Source: Rhodothermales bacterium (GTDB lineage: Bacteria > Bacteroidota > Rhodothermia > Rhodothermales > Bin80). From it: a DNA stretch of 36,039 nucleotides. The position numbers were made by a program, and so were the translations under genes. The DNA is taken from NCBI GenBank assembly GCA_012267425.1, contig JAAXGO010000137.1, positions 1 through 36,039 on the forward strand, written 5' to 3'. Positions 14,204 through 31,928 of the stretch are shown here, in pieces; the stretch's first letter is position 1, and the number at the start of each line of letters is the position of its first letter. The notes under the pieces are model-generated. The model saw only the letters and a list, made by a program, of their open reading frames with translations. It was not told the origin of the DNA and searched no databases.

Positions 14204-15454
14204 TCAGTCCATCATTTTGCGGAGAAACGCAGGTGTATCACTGTGTTCACGTCGCCCCTTTGACTCACTGTTCGCCGGATGTACCCTGCGCAGACGCCGT
14301 AGCTGCCTACCTGGTTCATCAGACTGTCCGGAGTACGTCTCACCCGACTGTTTCAAACGTATGCCGCCTCTTCGCTCGAATGCTGGCACGTCGAGAATCC
14401 GGAGGCTGTGCTCGCCCTTGTAATCATGCTTCGGATCGGCAAGCTGTACCGTGCGACGTGCTGGGACGCGTCCGTTTTCGTGATCGAAGCCCGTGGCTAT
14501 CACCGTTACGCGGAGTTTGTCCTCCATGGTAGTGTCGATTACCGTCCCCATGATGACCTCGACATCCGGTCCGGCTTGCTCCTTGATGATGTTCGTCGCC
14601 CGTGTGGCTTCGTGAATGCCGAGGTTGCTGCCGGCGGTGATATTGACCATGAGATTCCTGGCTCCGCTTATTGTCATGCCGTCCAGAAGCGGGCTCGAGA
14701 TCGCCTCCAAGGCGGCTTTTTCGGCGCGGTATTCGCCCGATTTGACTGCCGATCCCATCAGCGCCGAGCCTCCGTTTTCCATGGTCGTTCGCACGTCGGC
14801 AAAATCCAGATTGATGAGCCCCGTCCTGGTGATCAGATCGGAAATCCCCCGCGTAGCCTGATACAGCACATCGTCGACCATGCGAAACGCATCGATCATT
14901 GTCATTGCGTCATCGGAAATGTCGAGAACCCTCTCGTTCGGGATCACGATCAACGTGTCAACGTGCGGGCGTAACTTGCCGATGCCTTCGACGGCCATTT
15001 CCATTCGCTTGCTCCCTTCGCAGGCGAACGGCTTTGTGACGATCGCTACCACCAGGATGCCCAAGCGACGGGCAAGTTCGGCGACGATCGGTGCCCCTCC
15101 CGTGCCCGTTCCGCCTCCCATCCCGGCAGTGATAAACACCAGGTCGAATCCCTGAACGGCAGATTCGATAGCTGCCGTGTCCTGGGCTACCGCTTCTGCC
15201 CCCTTGAAGGGGCGCGCCCCCGTGCCGAGCCCCTTCGTGAGGGTGCGCCCTGCCTGAATCTTATTCGCAGCCAGATTCGCATTCAGCGCCTGGGAGTCTG
15301 TATTCACGGCGATGAATTCGACTGCCGAAATGCCCTCGGTGATCATGTTGTTGATGGCGTTGCCGCCACCTCCGCCTACGCCCACCACTCCAAGGCGGGC
15401 GCTATCTTCGGCCATCTCGTCAAATGTGAAGCGTGAGCCGACAAATTCTTCCAT
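14204..15454 (-). CDS. ftsZ: Cell division protein FtsZ
   Basis: A 416-aa tubulin-like GTPase that polymerises into the Z ring. The glycine-rich start of the GTPase domain is VGVGGGGGNAINNM (24-37). The tubulin signature GGGTGTG is at 113-119 and the T7 catalytic loop NLDFADVR at 215-222. The core ends near residue 325. A short basic linker (327-405) contains a second motif LDVPAFERRGG (354-364), as in other Bacteroidota FtsZ. The C-terminal peptide DTPAFLRKMMD should bind FtsA. It is the last gene of the dcw cluster; an 89-bp gap separates it from ftsA, and a good Shine-Dalgarno (GGAGG, 15462-15466) lies 7 bp from the start. Confidence 0.98.
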   Translation of the reverse strand: MEEFVGSRFTFDEMAEDSARLGVVGVGGGGGNAINNMITEGISAVEFIAVNTDSQALNANLAANKIQAGRTLTKGLGTGARPFKGAEAVAQDTAAIESAVQGFDLVFITAGMGGGTGTGGAPIVAELARRLGILVVAIVTKPFACEGSKRMEMAVEGIGKLRPHVDTLIVIPNERVLDISDDAMTMIDAFRMVDDVLYQATRGISDLITRTGLINLDFADVRTTMENGGSALMGSAVKSGEYRAEKAALEAISSPLLDGMTISGARNLMVNITAGSNLGIHEATRATNIIKEQAGPDVEVIMGTVIDTTMEDKLRVTVIATGFDHENGRVPARRTVQLADPKHDYKGEHSLRILDVPAFERRGGIRLKQSGETYSGQSDEPGRQLRRLRRVHPANSESKGRREHSDTPAFLRKMMD

Positions 15455-23886: not shown

Positions 23887-25377
23887 TCAGGTCGGGATTC
23901 CTCGGTGTTGAAATGCGCGGCAAGCTTCCCTTCGGTCGTCGAACGGTACACGGCAAGTTCCAATCGTCTGGAAGGACTCATGGCCCTTGCCGGCAAGGAG
24001 CACGACGTCGCCGGGCGCTGCTTTCCGTGCCGCCAGGCGAATGGCACGACGGCGATCTGCGATCCACTCTGCCCTTTCGGGATGCCGCATTCCGCGCCGA
24101 ATGTCCGCTTCGATACGAGACTGTGGCTCTGTACGCGAATTGTCCCTCGTCACGATGACGCGATCGGACAACCGCTCCGCAACGCGTCCCATAAGCGGCC
24201 GCTTCTGTCGGTCGCGCTCCCCACCACAGCCGAACAGGCACCAAAGGGCTCTCTTTTCTGGCGTCGCCGCGCGGATGGTGCTGAGTACCTTTTCCAGCGC
24301 GTCGGGTGTGTGTGCGTAATCGACGATCACGCGCGTTCCGTCTCCAAATACGAACTGCTCGAGACGGCCCTTGGGTGCCGGCACGACTTCCAGTGCATCG
24401 AGCGTCGCGTTCGCCTCGTAGCCCAAACCCCTGGCGGCGGCGTAGGCCGCAGCCAGATTCCAGGCGTTGAACCGGCCTACGAGCCGGAAGCGACGCGACT
24501 GTCCGTCCAGGCGCAAGCGCAGTCCGCAAAGATCGCTGTCGAGTATGCACAGACGCACGTCCGCTCCGCTGCCTTCTCCGTAGGACAGCGTACGGGCCGC
24601 CGTGGAGGACACCATGTAGCGCCCTGATACGTCATCGGCATTGTAGACGGCCACAGCATCAGACTTCAGATCATCGAACAGGAGCTTTTTTGTGCTCCGG
24701 TAGTCTTCAAAGGTGCCGTGATAGTCGGTGTGGTCCAGCGTGAGATTCGTAAATATCGCTGCGTCGAAGTCGATGCTCCGGGTGCGTTGCTGCGCGAGAG
24801 CATGTGACGACACCTCGAGTGCGCAGGCGGCGCAGCCGTAGAGTCTCATGCGGCGCAGCATCCGGTGCAGCTCCAGCGCGTCCGGCGTCGTGTGCACGGA
24901 CGGCTCCGCCGAGGTACCGAAGCGGTATTCGATCGTTCCGAGCAGCCCCGACGTACCCCTGGTTGCCGTCAGCACACTCCAAAACAGGTGCGCTGTCGTG
25001 GACTTGCCGTTCGTTCCGGTCACAGCGGTAAGCTCCAACTCCAGTGAAGGATCGTCGAAGAATTCCGCCGCCAAGACCGCAAGGGCCGCTCGCGAGTCAG
25101 AAACGAGTGCGAAGGCGACGCCGGGGAAGCGCCGAGACGCTTCCTCCGGCATCACCTCGCACACAACGGCAATTGATTCATTTTGAACAGCCTTGTCAAT
25201 GAACTGGTGGCCGTCGGCCGTCTCACCGCGAATTGCGACGAAAAGACCGCCGGGCCTGACTGCCCGACTGTCATGGGTCAGGCTGTCGATAACTCGTTTG
25301 TCTCCATGCATTTCTGCGCCTTCTATCAATCTGGCCGCCTGAAGGCGTCTGTACAGGTCGATCCATGGTTTTGCCAT
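23887..25377 (-). CDS. murE: UDP-MurNAc-L-Ala-D-Glu--diamino acid ligase (MurE)
   Basis: A 496-aa Mur ligase that adds the third residue of the stem peptide, presumably meso-diaminopimelate. An N-terminal UDP-binding domain (DSRAVRPGGLFVAIRG) is followed by the ATP loop GTNGKSTTA (121-129), LDHTDYHG, and YRSTKKLLF with the probable carbamylated Lys at 230. The C-terminal domain has VDYAHTPDAL, GCGGERDRQKRP and LLAGKGHE (460-467). The amino-acid-recognition motif, DNPR in mDAP-adding enzymes, reads DNSR here (412-415); the key Arg is kept, the Pro is lost. A 114-bp gap separates it from ftsI, the largest gap in the upstream half of the cluster. Confidence 0.97.
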   Translation of the reverse strand: MAKPWIDLYRRLQAARLIEGAEMHGDKRVIDSLTHDSRAVRPGGLFVAIRGETADGHQFIDKAVQNESIAVVCEVMPEEASRRFPGVAFALVSDSRAALAVLAAEFFDDPSLELELTAVTGTNGKSTTAHLFWSVLTATRGTSGLLGTIEYRFGTSAEPSVHTTPDALELHRMLRRMRLYGCAACALEVSSHALAQQRTRSIDFDAAIFTNLTLDHTDYHGTFEDYRSTKKLLFDDLKSDAVAVYNADDVSGRYMVSSTAARTLSYGEGSGADVRLCILDSDLCGLRLRLDGQSRRFRLVGRFNAWNLAAAYAAARGLGYEANATLDALEVVPAPKGRLEQFVFGDGTRVIVDYAHTPDALEKVLSTIRAATPEKRALWCLFGCGGERDRQKRPLMGRVAERLSDRVIVTRDNSRTEPQSRIEADIRRGMRHPERAEWIADRRRAIRLAARKAAPGDVVLLAGKGHESFQTIGTCRVPFDDRREACRAFQHRGIPT

Positions 25378-25491: not shown

Positions 25492-27585
25492 TTACCGGAG
25501 ACTCAGTGTTATTTCGGTCGGAAGGGCAGCACCGGGCTCAGCCGATTGGCCGATCACGATGCCGTGCCCCTGTAGCCGTGTCCGTACGCCGTGCTCTGTA
25601 AGCCAGGCCACCGCGGAGCGCGCTCCGAGGCCAGTCAGATCAGGCATGCGGACTTCCGTCGTATCGGGAACACTATCCCAAAACAGCTGCACGGCGTTGC
25701 CCGGCTCGAGCGGAGTACCTGCAGCGGGAGACTGCGACACAACCGGATTAAGTGGCATGTCCTGCTCTTCAACCCGATACCCCGCTGCCTGGATGTAGCG
25801 AGAGGCTTCGATGGCCGGTATGCCGGCCACGTCCGGCACGGAATGCGGTGTCGCGTCCGGCAGCGAATTCTGCCGGGCCAGCTCTTCGGCGAGGTCGGGA
25901 AACGTGCCGATCCAGCGTTCGGCTATCTTGCGGAAGACTGGTGCGGACACCCTTCCTCCGAAGATGCTCAGCTTCGGTTCGTCCATCACGATGATCATTG
26001 CCACCTCCGGGTTCCTCGCGGGAAAGAATCCCACGAACGTTGCCCGGTACCCGCGCCCGTACCGGCCACCCTGCGCAATGCGGGCCGTCCCTGTCTTGCC
26101 GGCAGCTTCAAACCCTTCGATCCCGGCGCGTGTGGCGGTGCCCCGCCGTACAACGTCGGTAAATGCAGGCAATAGCAAGGCAGCCGTTTCCTCGTCGATA
26201 ACGCGCCGTACCGAATCGCGGCGGGCCCTGTCATCGGTTGCTTTCCACAGAATCTGCCCCGCGGCATCGCGGCGTTCTGCCACGATGTAGGGTTGCCTCA
26301 GAAGGCCGCCGTTTGCGAGCGCTGCGTAGGCCATCAGCAGCTGCAGCGGCGTCACGCTGATTTCGTAGCCGATGGCCATTGACGTTTTCGTCGTAGCGCT
26401 CCAGCGGTTGGTCTTTTTGAGCCGTCCGCGGGCTTCGCCGGGCAGGTCGATCCACGTTTTCTGGCCAAACCCAAAACTCCGTGCATATGTGTAGAGGTCG
26501 CCACCCTGGAGCTGCATCGCGGTCATAGCCATGCCCACGTTGCTACTGAGTGCGATGACATCATTAAACGGGATGATCCCATGTACGTGCGTGTCGTGCA
26601 TCGTCGTGCCGACGATCGTGATTGATCCCTGACCCGTGTCGACCTCATCGTGCATCGACACGCCGCCGATTTCGATTGCCACCGCTGCCCCGACGAGTTT
26701 GAATGTCGAGCCCGGCTCCATCTGGTCGGTCACGGAGGCGTTTCGTCTTGACGCCATCCGGTACTGTTGAGGACGGTTGGGATCATACGTTGGCACGTTG
26801 GCCATCGCCAGAATCGCGCCGGTTTCGGGGTTGACGGCAATCGCCATACCCCGGCGTGCCCGCGCTTCTTTGACACCCTTTGTCAGTTCTTCTTCGAGAA
26901 TTGTCTGACGAATGAGATCGAGCGTCAAAACGAGTGTCTGTCCGTCACGTGGCTCGACGACCGTGCCCGCTGCGTCCACGCGCCTGTACCCGCGGCGGTC
27001 ACGCAGCAGTGCGCGTCGTCCGGACACGCCTCGAAGCACGTCATCGTATTGCAGCTCGATACCTGCCGTCCCCCGACCGTCCATGTCGACGTGGCCCAGA
27101 ACGTGCGCCGCCGTAGTGCCGAAATTGTAGCGGCGGCGGAATCTCTGCTCTAGAATCACACCTGGCATGTCCCAGGAATCAACGCTGAGGCGTTCTGCAG
27201 TTGTTAGTGATGCTAGACGCACATACTTCGAGCCCTTCTTCTCGTTGACCCGTCTCCAATAGCTGCGCGCGCTCGAGTGTGTAAGAGAGGCAAGGCGTTC
27301 GAAGAATTCGGCACTCACCTCGTCAAAACCTGGAAACGTGGGATCTACCGCCAAGTCGTACCGAGGCACGTTGACCACAAGTGCGCGTCCGCTGCGATCG
27401 ACAATAGTGCCACGCTTGGCCGGCAATACTGACTCCGACCGCGCCTGCCGGAGGCCTTCAGCACGCAGCTCCTCGCCTTCCGCCAGGTGGACCCACACCA
27501 TTTGAACGGCCACCAGCAGCGGCACGACGGCGAGAAACGTCAGCACGACGTACATGCGACTTAATATTTGGTCTTTTACACCCAC
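25492..27585 (-). CDS. ftsI: Septal penicillin-binding protein (transpeptidase) FtsI with two PASTA domains
   Basis: A 697-aa class B PBP that cross-links septal peptidoglycan. The start is GTG at 27585, 12 bp after ftsL. A short cytoplasmic tail and one transmembrane helix (~11-33) precede the dimerisation domain (RGTIVDRSGRALV). The transpeptidase domain has the complete triad S293-T-F-K296, S347-S-N349 and K497-T-G-T. Two C-terminal PASTA repeats follow (~582-636, VPDVAGIPAIEASRYI; ~646-697, MPDLTGLGARSAVAWL). PASTA in an FtsI is normal for Bacteroidota and Gram-positives but not for Proteobacteria. Partner of FtsW. Confidence 0.97.
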   Translation of the reverse strand: MGVKDQILSRMYVVLTFLAVVPLLVAVQMVWVHLAEGEELRAEGLRQARSESVLPAKRGTIVDRSGRALVVNVPRYDLAVDPTFPGFDEVSAEFFERLASLTHSSARSYWRRVNEKKGSKYVRLASLTTAERLSVDSWDMPGVILEQRFRRRYNFGTTAAHVLGHVDMDGRGTAGIELQYDDVLRGVSGRRALLRDRRGYRRVDAAGTVVEPRDGQTLVLTLDLIRQTILEEELTKGVKEARARRGMAIAVNPETGAILAMANVPTYDPNRPQQYRMASRRNASVTDQMEPGSTFKLVGAAVAIEIGGVSMHDEVDTGQGSITIVGTTMHDTHVHGIIPFNDVIALSSNVGMAMTAMQLQGGDLYTYARSFGFGQKTWIDLPGEARGRLKKTNRWSATTKTSMAIGYEISVTPLQLLMAYAALANGGLLRQPYIVAERRDAAGQILWKATDDRARRDSVRRVIDEETAALLLPAFTDVVRRGTATRAGIEGFEAAGKTGTARIAQGGRYGRGYRATFVGFFPARNPEVAMIIVMDEPKLSIFGGRVSAPVFRKIAERWIGTFPDLAEELARQNSLPDATPHSVPDVAGIPAIEASRYIQAAGYRVEEQDMPLNPVVSQSPAAGTPLEPGNAVQLFWDSVPDTTEVRMPDLTGLGARSAVAWLTEHGVRTRLQGHGIVIGQSAEPGAALPTEITLSLR

Positions 27586-27597
27586 GTCGATGTCTGT

Positions 27598-27978
27598 CTA
27601 CTGGGCGGGAATCACAATCGGGGACCCATACGTGAAACCGTCCTCAAGGCCCAATTCGGCGGCCCGTCGGTAGATCACGGCAGGTCCTGTGGCCTGGTCG
27701 AGTGCACCCTTGAGTCTGTTGTGCTGCAGAGTGAGTTGCAGGTTATCCCGCCCCAATTGCTGCAGTTCGTCGATGAGATCCTGCGTGGCGTATACGTGCG
27801 CGATGTAGAGCGTAATGATGCTCGCCACAAGGAACAGGACGGAGGCAAACCGAGTCGTCGAGATCTTCGTCACGACGACCGTTGAGCGCGGGTTAGCGGG
27901 CTCTTCGAAAACTTGAAGCTCGCGCAACTCTCCAATTGCACGGAGAGCTCGTCGGCTGTATGTATGTGTCGTTAGCAT
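27598..27978 (-). CDS. ftsL: Cell division protein FtsL-like
   Basis: A 126-aa bitopic protein. The start is set at ATG 27978, overlapping the rsmH stop by 7 bp; the frame is open further back only as an rsmH shadow. A cytoplasmic tail of ~40 residues leads to one transmembrane helix (~44-63, FASVLFLVASIITLYIAHVY). A heptad-like coiled coil follows (LIDELQQLGRDNLQLTLQHNRLKGAL), then ERAAELGLE-type sequence (YRRAAELGLED). Sequence conservation of FtsL is weak; size, topology and position between rsmH and ftsI carry the call. Confidence 0.9.
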   Translation of the reverse strand: MLTTHTYSRRALRAIGELRELQVFEEPANPRSTVVVTKISTTRFASVLFLVASIITLYIAHVYATQDLIDELQQLGRDNLQLTLQHNRLKGALDQATGPAVIYRRAAELGLEDGFTYGSPIVIPAQ

Positions 27979-28934
27979 GCCGTTGCAGTCGCTGTCGTGG
28001 AAGTACGTTCGGCCACTCGAAGACGTGCACTGCGGGCGCGCGGATTGGCCACGATCTCCCGATCGTCGGGAGTAATTGGCCTGCGTGTCATGGCTCGCCA
28101 CGGCGAAATTGGCGTGCCGAACACATCGCGCACGGGTTCACCACGCACATTGCCGTATCGAAACGTGCGCTTAACGCGGCGATCTTCCAACGAATGATAG
28201 CTGATGACCGCCATCCGTCCGCCGCGTTCGAGAATGTGTTCAGCAGCCAGAAGTGCTTTTTCCAGGTTGCGCAGTTCGTCGTTGACGGCGATGCGTACTG
28301 CTTGGAAAACGCGAGACAGTGTCTTCGCCTCGCGTCGTATGTTGACCGCTGCGCGGACGATTCGGGCCAACTGCCCAGTTGAATTCACGGGACGTGCTGC
28401 TACGACCTTGCGCGCAATTCGCGCTGCACGCGGCTCTTCTCCGTATTCACGTAGCAGCTGTCGAAGCTCTCTTTCCGACCACCGGTTGATGATGTCAGCA
28501 GCATCGAGATCCTCGTCACTGCTCATGCGCATGTCAAGAGGCGCATCGATGCGATAACTGAATCCGCGGCGCGAGGTGTCAATCTGGTGCGACGACACAC
28601 CGAGATCCAGAAGCAGACCCCGGACACCTGTAATGCCCTCGTTCGCCAAGAGCGCTTCCAGTTCAGCGAAATTGCCGTGGATCGTGCGCAATTGCCCGCT
28701 TGACACACGTGTCGAGAGGCGGCGCCTCGTTGCATCTATCGCCTCCCTATCCCTGTCAACGCCAACAACCGTCGCTCCCGCATCCAGAAGCGCGGCGGTG
28801 TGTCCACCACCACCAAGCGTCCCATCGACGTACGGTCCGCCCAGCGACGTCACTAGTGCCTCCACAACAGCATGACAAAGAACGGGTACGTGAAACGAAC
28901 CGGCGTAGTCCGCCGCTGGCTCGCGTGGTGCCAT
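27972..28934 (-). CDS. rsmH: 16S rRNA (cytosine-1402-N4)-methyltransferase RsmH
   Basis: A 320-aa SAM-dependent methyltransferase (MraW) acting on 16S rRNA C1402. The N-terminal HVPVLCHAVVEAL leads to the SAM loop VDGTLGGGGHTAALL (36-50). LLLDLGVSSHQID, GFSYRIDAPLDMRM and the late ISYHSLEDRRVKRTF block are all family hallmarks. Its ATG overlaps the mraZ stop by one base (TGATG), and its end overlaps ftsL, so the three genes are coupled. Confidence 0.98.
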   Translation of the reverse strand: MAPREPAADYAGSFHVPVLCHAVVEALVTSLGGPYVDGTLGGGGHTAALLDAGATVVGVDRDREAIDATRRRLSTRVSSGQLRTIHGNFAELEALLANEGITGVRGLLLDLGVSSHQIDTSRRGFSYRIDAPLDMRMSSDEDLDAADIINRWSERELRQLLREYGEEPRAARIARKVVAARPVNSTGQLARIVRAAVNIRREAKTLSRVFQAVRIAVNDELRNLEKALLAAEHILERGGRMAVISYHSLEDRRVKRTFRYGNVRGEPVRDVFGTPISPWRAMTRRPITPDDREIVANPRARSARLRVAERTSTTATATAC

Positions 28935-29377
28935 CAGGCACTCATCGCTCGCTGTGCGAGCGTTTCAAAATCTTCGGTTTGTGCTTCGAGGTAAGCCTGG
29001 AACGTGTGCTGATTCCAGATTTCGACCTTATCGAGACTGCCCAGAATGAGGGCATGCTGCCTGATGCCTGCGTACTGGGCAAGCGATTTCGGCAGCGTCA
29101 CGCGACCTTGGGTATCGAGCGTCGCTTCCTCCGCCCACATCATGATCAGCCGTGTGAACGCGCGTGCATGGTGGTCATACGGGCTCAGCGCCGCTATTTT
29201 GCTTTCCATGGCGGACCAGCGATCCAGCGGATAGAGATAAATGCACTGCTCAAATCCGCGGGTAATCGTGAACGTGCTCATAGCCTCCGGGTTAAGCGCA
29301 CTGCGCATCTTGGCAGGAATCGCAACCCGAGACTTCGAGTCCACCTTGTACAGCGCTTGTCCCTTGAATCCCGGCAC
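28934..29377 (-). CDS. mraZ: Transcriptional regulator MraZ
   Basis: A 147-aa protein with two SpoVT/AbrB-like halves, each with the DxxxR motif: DSKSRVAIP (~13-21) and DTQGRVTLP (~88-96). In other bacteria MraZ forms ring-like oligomers that bind TGGGN direct repeats upstream of its own gene and control the dcw operon. Such repeats are found here 30-44 bp upstream (separate entry). The start is GTG at 29377. It is the first gene of the division cluster. Confidence 0.97.
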   Translation of the reverse strand: MPGFKGQALYKVDSKSRVAIPAKMRSALNPEAMSTFTITRGFEQCIYLYPLDRWSAMESKIAALSPYDHHARAFTRLIMMWAEEATLDTQGRVTLPKSLAQYAGIRQHALILGSLDKVEIWNQHTFQAYLEAQTEDFETLAQRAMSA

Positions 29378-29406
29378 GTTATTGTCTCACTTCGTATGGG
29401 CAAATT

Positions 29407-29421
29407 CCCCACTTTTCCCCA
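29407..29421 (-). promoter_or_regulatory. MraZ-binding box: two TGGGG direct repeats
   Basis: On the minus strand TGGGG (29421-29417), 5 bp (AAAAG), TGGGG (29411-29407). The 10-bp periodicity equals one helical turn and matches the known MraZ operator pattern (TGGGN with 5-bp spacers). Only two clear repeats are present; the third register reads GCCCA. It lies downstream of the proposed mraZ promoter, a position suited to autorepression. Confidence 0.8.
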
Positions 29422-29431
29422 CTGGAAAAAC

Positions 29432-29459
29432 AATCTACGGCAGGCATGCCCTAGTTCAA
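29432..29459 (-). promoter_or_regulatory. Possible mraZ (dcw cluster) promoter
   Basis: On the minus strand TTGAAC (29459-29454) and TAGATT (29437-29432) are 16 bp apart. A start site near 29425 would fall right at the MraZ box, as in other dcw clusters. Sequence resemblance only. Confidence 0.35.
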
Positions 29460-29540: not shown

Positions 29541-29607
29541 CGACGGCATAGGGTGTAAGTATATTCACCTGCAGCGATGATCGGTTTTCACCACGCGCCC
29601 CCACACC

Positions 29608-30249
29608 ATGCGAACACCGCTGACGGAGCGTCAGAATGATGCATTCGAGTACATCCGGCGCTGTATCAGGGATCGGCGCACGCCGCCGACGATTCAGGAG
29701 ATGGGAACCGAACTTGGGGTCCGCAGCCCGAATGCTGTAGTAAAGCTGCTCAAGGCACTCGAAAGGAAGGGCTACATCGAGCGCGAACCGCGGAGGGCAC
29801 GTGGCCTCCGTATCGTCGACACCGAGGATCCGTTCTCGCTGGACGACGGCCCGCCTACGCTGCCATTGGTAGGCCGGATCAGCAGCCGTGACCCGGCGTC
29901 AGTGCGTATGAGGCCGGTGGCCTATTTCAGCATTGATCCATTCTTCTTGCGGCCCGGCTCCTCCGACCGGAGCCTCATCGGGCGCAGTGCAGACGACGGA
30001 ATGATCCAGGAAGGAATCCGCAAGGGTGACTTTGTCGTGGTCGAGGAGCAATCCTGGAAGCGGCTGCCTCAGGGCCAACTAGCGGCCTGTCTCGTCGGCG
30101 AGGAACTGCGGGTTCGCCGCCTGTACCGGCAGCGTCAGATGCTTCGTCTTCGCGCGTCGAACCGTACATATTCCGAAGAAGTGTTTTCGGTTCGTGATCC
30201 CGGCTACTTCGTGGTCGGTCCGGTAATCAGTTTATTGCGCCGCTTCTAA
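29608..30249 (+). CDS. lexA: LexA-family repressor lacking all self-cleavage residues
   Basis: A 213-aa protein aligning along its whole length with LexA. The N-terminal winged helix is intact (LTERQNDAFEYI; TPPTIQEMGTELGVRSPNAV; LERKGYIERE, 6-60). The C-terminal S24-type domain begins LPLVGR and ends GPVISLLRRF as in true LexA, but the self-cleavage apparatus is gone. The Ala-Gly cleavage site (VAAGEP in E. coli) reads ISSRDP (91-96). The catalytic Ser of the GDSM-type motif reads Gly131 in ADDGM. The catalytic Lys of VKRL is Arg170 in VRRL. So it should bind DNA but not respond to RecA by self-cleavage. It is divergent from mraZ and converges on pyrG with an 8-bp gap. Dimerisation regions look kept. 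Whether it still controls SOS genes is unknown. Confidence 0.93.
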   Translation: MRTPLTERQNDAFEYIRRCIRDRRTPPTIQEMGTELGVRSPNAVVKLLKALERKGYIEREPRRARGLRIVDTEDPFSLDDGPPTLPLVGRISSRDPASVRMRPVAYFSIDPFFLRPGSSDRSLIGRSADDGMIQEGIRKGDFVVVEEQSWKRLPQGQLAACLVGEELRVRRLYRQRQMLRLRASNRTYSEEVFSVRDPGYFVVGPVISLLRRF

Positions 30250-30257
30250 GAGCTGAC

Positions 30258-31928
<1,671 letters not shown>

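Follow-up and report, generated by a model that had tools for sequence, protein, structure and literature searches.

The window analysed here, a stretch of 36,039 nucleotides from a Rhodothermales bacterium, encodes on its plus strand (29608..30249) a LexA-like protein of 213 amino acids that, judging from its aligned residues, is almost certainly a dead protease. We consider it rather likely that the protein acts as a non-cleavable, autoregulated LexA dimer dedicated to one locus, the stretch of divergent promoters with which the dcw cluster begins.

The ORF is intact and starts with the ATG at 29608. The protein scored 130.2 bits against TIGR00498 lexA (NCBI curated cut-off 110.95), and matches to PF01726 and PF00717 gave it an N-terminal winged helix (29614..29805, plus strand; 80.3 bits) followed by an S24-like domain. 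Its identity to E. coli LexA is about 31%, and its sequence matches in the PDB were LexA chains only. An AlphaFold2 model (pLDDT 88) led to the same family, the best PDB structure matches all being LexA, with a TMt of about 0.8 for the C-terminal domain.

Catalytic residues and their loss across relatives

Aligned with E. coli LexA, the cleavage region VAAGE reads ISSRD, in which Ser93-Arg94 (codons 29884..29889) occupies the place of Ala84-Gly85; the nucleophile region GMSM reads DDGM, in which Gly131 (29998..30000) occupies the place of Ser119; and the general-base region VKRL reads VRRL, in which Arg170 (30115..30117) occupies the place of Lys156, all on the plus strand. These are the replacements that the first-pass annotation had read from the letters, and the alignment bears them out. 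Gly117 of E. coli LexA, two residues before the nucleophile, is Asp129 in the window protein; Asp129/Asp130 and Arg170 may be joined by a salt bridge where the active site used to be.

The same residues recur throughout the clade. In an alignment of 27 homologues from the window's order and from Kryptoniota-like contigs (alignment A1), all of which match TIGR00498 at E <= 0.001, Arg170, Asp129 and Met132 are invariant (27/27), and the residue at 131 is Gly except in the Kryptoniota-like group, which has Ala. From the order, 33 intact ORFs were retrieved, many of them also in A1, and every one carries D-[D/A]-G-M together with Arg (32 DDGM and one DAGM). The loss is thus clade-wide, a point that the first-pass annotation had left to be checked, and its view that the changes are not sequencing error is upheld by the identical residues of the clade. 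The C-terminal domain of the A1 homologues contained no invariant Ser, Thr, Cys, Lys or His to replace the dyad, and a takeover of catalysis by a neighbouring Ser or Lys is rejected on this ground.

Across a broader sample of 71 proteins, cleavage site, nucleophile and base change state together: canonical members have Ala-Gly (one Gly-Gly), GxS[M/L] and Lys, and degenerate members have no Ala-Gly, mostly D-D-x-M, and Arg, the last in 46 of 46. Ala-Gly is absent from the cleavage position of the aligned Arg-type members, except in one ambiguous diverged copy (G088b, GEAGG). A maximum-likelihood tree built without the catalytic columns, in which no root was inferred and some rows are long, placed all 46 Arg-type LexAs on one side of a single branch (98/88; 98% of bootstrap trees) and all 25 canonical LexAs, including E. 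coli LexA and the canonical paralogues, on the opposite side. One ancient catalytic loss is the simplest reading of these sequences. Of the three independent losses claimed at first pass, the loss itself stands and the independence does not, the changes appearing in alignment and tree as one ancient clade-wide state.

Genus g10 of family f5 (L154, L155, L156), where the gene lies beside mraZ and pyrG, keeps the Ser (DDSM) together with Arg and no Ala-Gly, so that the lost base is the feature common to all members. Genome G088 has two diverged dead-LexA copies (L158, L159), and it is the copy beside mraZ that reads GEAGG at the former cleavage site. The degenerate side of the tree also includes two Gemmatimonadota sequences (L006, L007), Arg-type LexAs without the catalytic parts that do not lie beside mraZ; L006 is near a gltX-like gene, and a DinG-like helicase gene is near both.

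The window genome encodes a second, canonical LexA on another contig (L002; AAG, GQSM, SLKR), which bears on a further check proposed at first pass; the assembly is fragmented with 7% contamination, so the L002 contig alone is no proof, but the relatives agree, as most of them also have a canonical LexA besides the dead one. Genus g8 had no second PF01726 protein, and in four Rhodothermus-type genomes (G031, taken as Rhodothermus marinus DSM 4252, G041, G050 and G056) the dead LexA is the sole S24 protein and RecA is normal. The LexA of Balneolaeota is an SOS repressor recognising a direct repeat (PMC7739468); it is probably a relative of L002, and its site differs from the palindrome proposed below for the dead LexA. 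LexA homologues have been reported absent in Bacteroidetes, in an account that does not mention Rhodothermus or Salinibacter and that describes a non-canonical LexA with a CI-type HTH, intact cleavage parts and control of SOS genes (PMC8565304). Both this protein and the dead LexA are S24 repressors of the wider phylum, but the N-terminus of the latter is the winged helix PF01726 and its catalytic parts are lost. Canonical LexAs, complete in their catalytic residues and carrying the winged helix of LexA, were also found in families f27 and f45 (L135-L137, L140, L142, L145, L146, L148) of the same GTDB phylum, in conflict with the published view of a Bacteroidetes without LexA, depending on where the limits of the phylum are drawn.

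The mraZ-linked locus and its candidate operators

In the window, the LexA-like gene is divergent from mraZ (28934..29377), the first dcw gene, which is followed on the same minus strand by rsmH (mraW; 27972..28934), an ftsL-like gene (27598..28101) and the penicillin-binding protein gene ftsI (25492..27585), all assigned by ORF and synteny, and by murE (23887..25377), assigned by synteny; the cluster continues as far as ftsZ (14204-15454). On the other flank lies the convergent pyrG (30258..31928, minus strand; ORF and synteny), which adjoins the LexA-like gene in only part of the group. In 20 of the 20 order loci fetched, some of them clipped by contig or fetch ends, the LexA-like gene adjoins mraZ-rsmH-ftsL-ftsI-murE divergently, and the divergent mraZ adjacency is also found in three Kryptoniota-like contigs and in Kryptoniota-like genomes. 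The same arrangement extends to genomes of families f35, f41, f55 and f37 and to genera g10 and g47. The dead LexA lies away from mraZ in families f32, f53 and f58; the mraZ-linked f37 branches with these three, so the linkage was probably lost in them. None of the fetched canonical lexA loci contained mraZ inside the fetched flanks.

On the mraZ side of the intergenic region, a MraZ-box-like TTCCCCACTTTTCCCCAC near mraZ occurs in the order, and the mraZ promoter TTGAC-N17-TACCTTG is conserved in many of its genomes. Their counterparts in the window, both on the minus strand, are the MraZ-box-like repeat GTGGGGAAAAGTGGGGA (29406..29422; 0 expected by chance), similar to repeats in the relatives, and the candidate promoter TTGAA-N17-TAGATTG (29431..29459). 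An Rfam search of the region returned no RNA element.

On the other side, one or two palindromes with the consensus GGTGAAAATATTTTCACC (40 sites) are found near the LexA-like gene in the genomes of the order. The paired palindromes in the promoter of this gene, GGTGAAA-N4-TTTCACC, have the geometry of LexA-dimer sites and are separated by 2-5 turns of the helix; the spacings of 22, 31-33, 41 or 54 bp all come near an integral number of 10.5-bp turns. In families f41/f55 the corresponding position is taken by pairs that have, or nearly have, the form CTG-N10-CAG. The TG lies 7 and 6 positions from the centre of the palindrome, the geometry seen in the E. coli SOS box. The window contains one palindromic operator candidate of this family motif, GGTGTAAGTATATTCACC (29552..29569, no strand assigned; 0.05 expected by chance in the window), and a single half-site, TTTTCACC (29585..29592, no strand assigned), a weak candidate for a second operator with half matches only; three other matches with one mismatch occur in the window genome. 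In several genomes the proximal palindrome is followed, after a few bases, by a TATCTTTG-like sequence (TAnnTTTG-like), which fits the -7 box of Bacteroidota promoters, and this position suggests repression by steric block. The palindromes adjoin the promoter of the LexA-like gene itself, not that of mraZ, and some 80-130 bp separate the distal one from the mraZ -33 element, which means that any control of mraZ would be exerted from a distance.

Genome-wide scans with relaxed patterns and mismatches point to a very small set of sites. Searched with the relaxed pattern at <=1 mismatch, the whole genomes of R. marinus and of its relative G017 each yielded the two palindromes of this locus and no others (control 0), and in the scan of 114 order genomes every exact match among those listed, from nine genomes, lies at the LexA-like/mraZ locus. 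By hand count, a site with <=1 mismatch is present at the locus in 24 of the 47 genomes with a strong homologue. Searches of the recA loci gave a best match with at least 3 mismatches and those of the canonical lexA loci gave no site, and the palindrome is rejected as a general SOS box on this evidence. A palindrome of the GGTGAAA-N4-TTTCACC type was not found in the Kryptoniota-like members. In G006, where no canonical LexA was detected, a perfect relaxed-pattern palindrome GGTGTAATTATTTTCACC (L168:3010-3027, G006:C14:13009) lies between SixA-like phosphatase and exonuclease III genes; it is either a chance occurrence or a second target.

Proposed function and alternative explanations

That the dead LexA binds the candidate paired operators and autoregulates is, on these sequences, quite probable; that it regulates dcw is also favoured, though only somewhat. 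The dimer would sit on both palindromes of its promoter, along one DNA face and probably cooperatively, and autorepression would keep its level steady. Bound there, about 100 bp upstream of the mraZ promoter, it could act jointly with MraZ to modulate mraZ and the dcw operon. A protein unable to cut itself could not be switched off by RecA in the usual way, and its activity would have to depend on how much of it is present, on a different protease, or on a ligand or partner that the formerly catalytic domain binds. The earlier picture of a DNA-binding LexA, predicted to resist cleavage and to be uncoupled from RecA, is supported by the sequences. Action on the neighbouring mraZ/dcw promoter is proposed because, in the best genomes, the operators are found nowhere else. 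Against this reading stand the window copy itself, with one good palindrome and a half-site only, the unlinked members in f32, f53 and f58, the Kryptoniota-like members lacking the palindrome, and the many genomes of the order lacking the gene.

With E. coli LexA, the dead LexA shares domain order, fold and winged helix and, probably, a dimer sitting on a palindrome in its own promoter; it differs in having DDGM and Arg instead of Ala-Gly, Ser and Lys, in its operator sequence, and in showing no sign of an SOS regulon. The nearest functional analogue is the LexA of Synechocystis PCC 6803, which lacks the Ala-Gly site (Gly-Gly) and the catalytic Ser (Asp) and represses a broad regulon of other genes instead of serving as an SOS switch (PMC7567884, PMC3091678). 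The cyanobacterial comparison drawn at first pass is fair as an analogy; here, in contrast, cleavage site and Lys are missing throughout a clade, almost all of whose members lack the Ser as well, and the candidate operators are at one locus beside dcw. MraZ, the transcription factor at the dcw head that represses its own cluster (PMC8475190), would act on the same intergenic region as proposed for the dead LexA, but it is unrelated to LexA and binds direct repeats.

The dead LexA could instead be a pure autoregulator, with the mraZ link an inherited gene order and its real targets elsewhere with weaker sites. The position of the operators, at its own promoter and some 80-130 bp from the mraZ -33 element, fits this, as does the second perfect-pattern site of G006 upstream of the exonuclease III gene; R. 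marinus, however, has no further site at <=1 mismatch, and the gene has stayed linked to mraZ in different families and lineages while its neighbour on the other flank varies, which makes this reading rather unlikely. It is less credible still that the protein has remained an SOS regulator, released by some other protease or, without self-cleavage, by direct contact with RecA, and standing in for LexA in Rhodothermus: although it is the sole LexA and sole S24 protein of four Rhodothermus-type genomes with RecA, no operator is found at recA, the operator set is a single locus, and a canonical LexA coexists in most genomes.

Pairwise dN/dS was 0.03-0.08 within genera g8 and g19, for pairs with a measurable dS; two other genera gave about 0.12, and a single g30 pair gave 0.43, so that most pairs fall within 0.03-0.12; the LexA-like gene is under strong purifying selection. 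The pseudogene reading is rejected for most members by dN/dS and holds for G002, of the same genus as G006, whose locus (L190, G002:C1:1689000-1703000) keeps the order mraZ, LexA-like gene, pyrG with the LexA-like gene broken by frameshifts and stops. Nowhere in this locus did the palindrome occur with fewer than 4 mismatches, and the MraZ box is intact. Gene broken and operator gone, the two appear coupled, and the gene can be lost. In G069 (L157, G069:C5) the LexA-like gene has one in-frame TGA, either a recent loss or an error, and both palindromes, about 550 bp upstream of it, are intact. A functionless paralogue in decay, to which G002, G069 and the many order genomes without the gene might point, is highly improbable, and is refuted for most members by the dN/dS and by the invariant Asp129, Met132 and Arg170, the conserved operators and synteny also speaking against it. 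There is likewise only a slim chance that a different regulator binds the palindrome and the dead LexA does something else, given the TG at +-7/6 around the dyad, a placement shared with the E. coli SOS box, the f41/f55 pairs at the same place, and the disappearance of the operator where the gene is broken.

Returning to the preferred reading of a LexA dimer dedicated to the dcw head, control of dcw, if true, would place a second transcription factor beside MraZ at a cell-division locus that ranks among the most conserved in bacteria and would mean that a DNA-damage switch was turned into a housekeeping division regulator. More tentatively, and with slightly less than even confidence, the protease may have been lost once in a LexA paralogue early in Bacteroidota/Kryptoniota (perhaps also Gemmatimonadota), yielding a regulator reserved for the division and cell-wall cluster, whose dead cleft would serve as a sensor of a cell-wall, nucleotide or partner-protein signal. 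Among the papers covered by our searches, none linked LexA with mraZ or Rhodothermus, and none dealt with this protease-dead family. Since R. marinus and Salinibacter ruber (presumably our G028, strain DSM 13855) are cultured, direct testing is possible. Genomes such as that of R. marinus seem to have LexA-based SOS, yet their only LexA should be non-cleavable; TIGR00498 accepts the window protein and matches all 27 dead members of A1, and annotation likely reports an SOS LexA that is absent.
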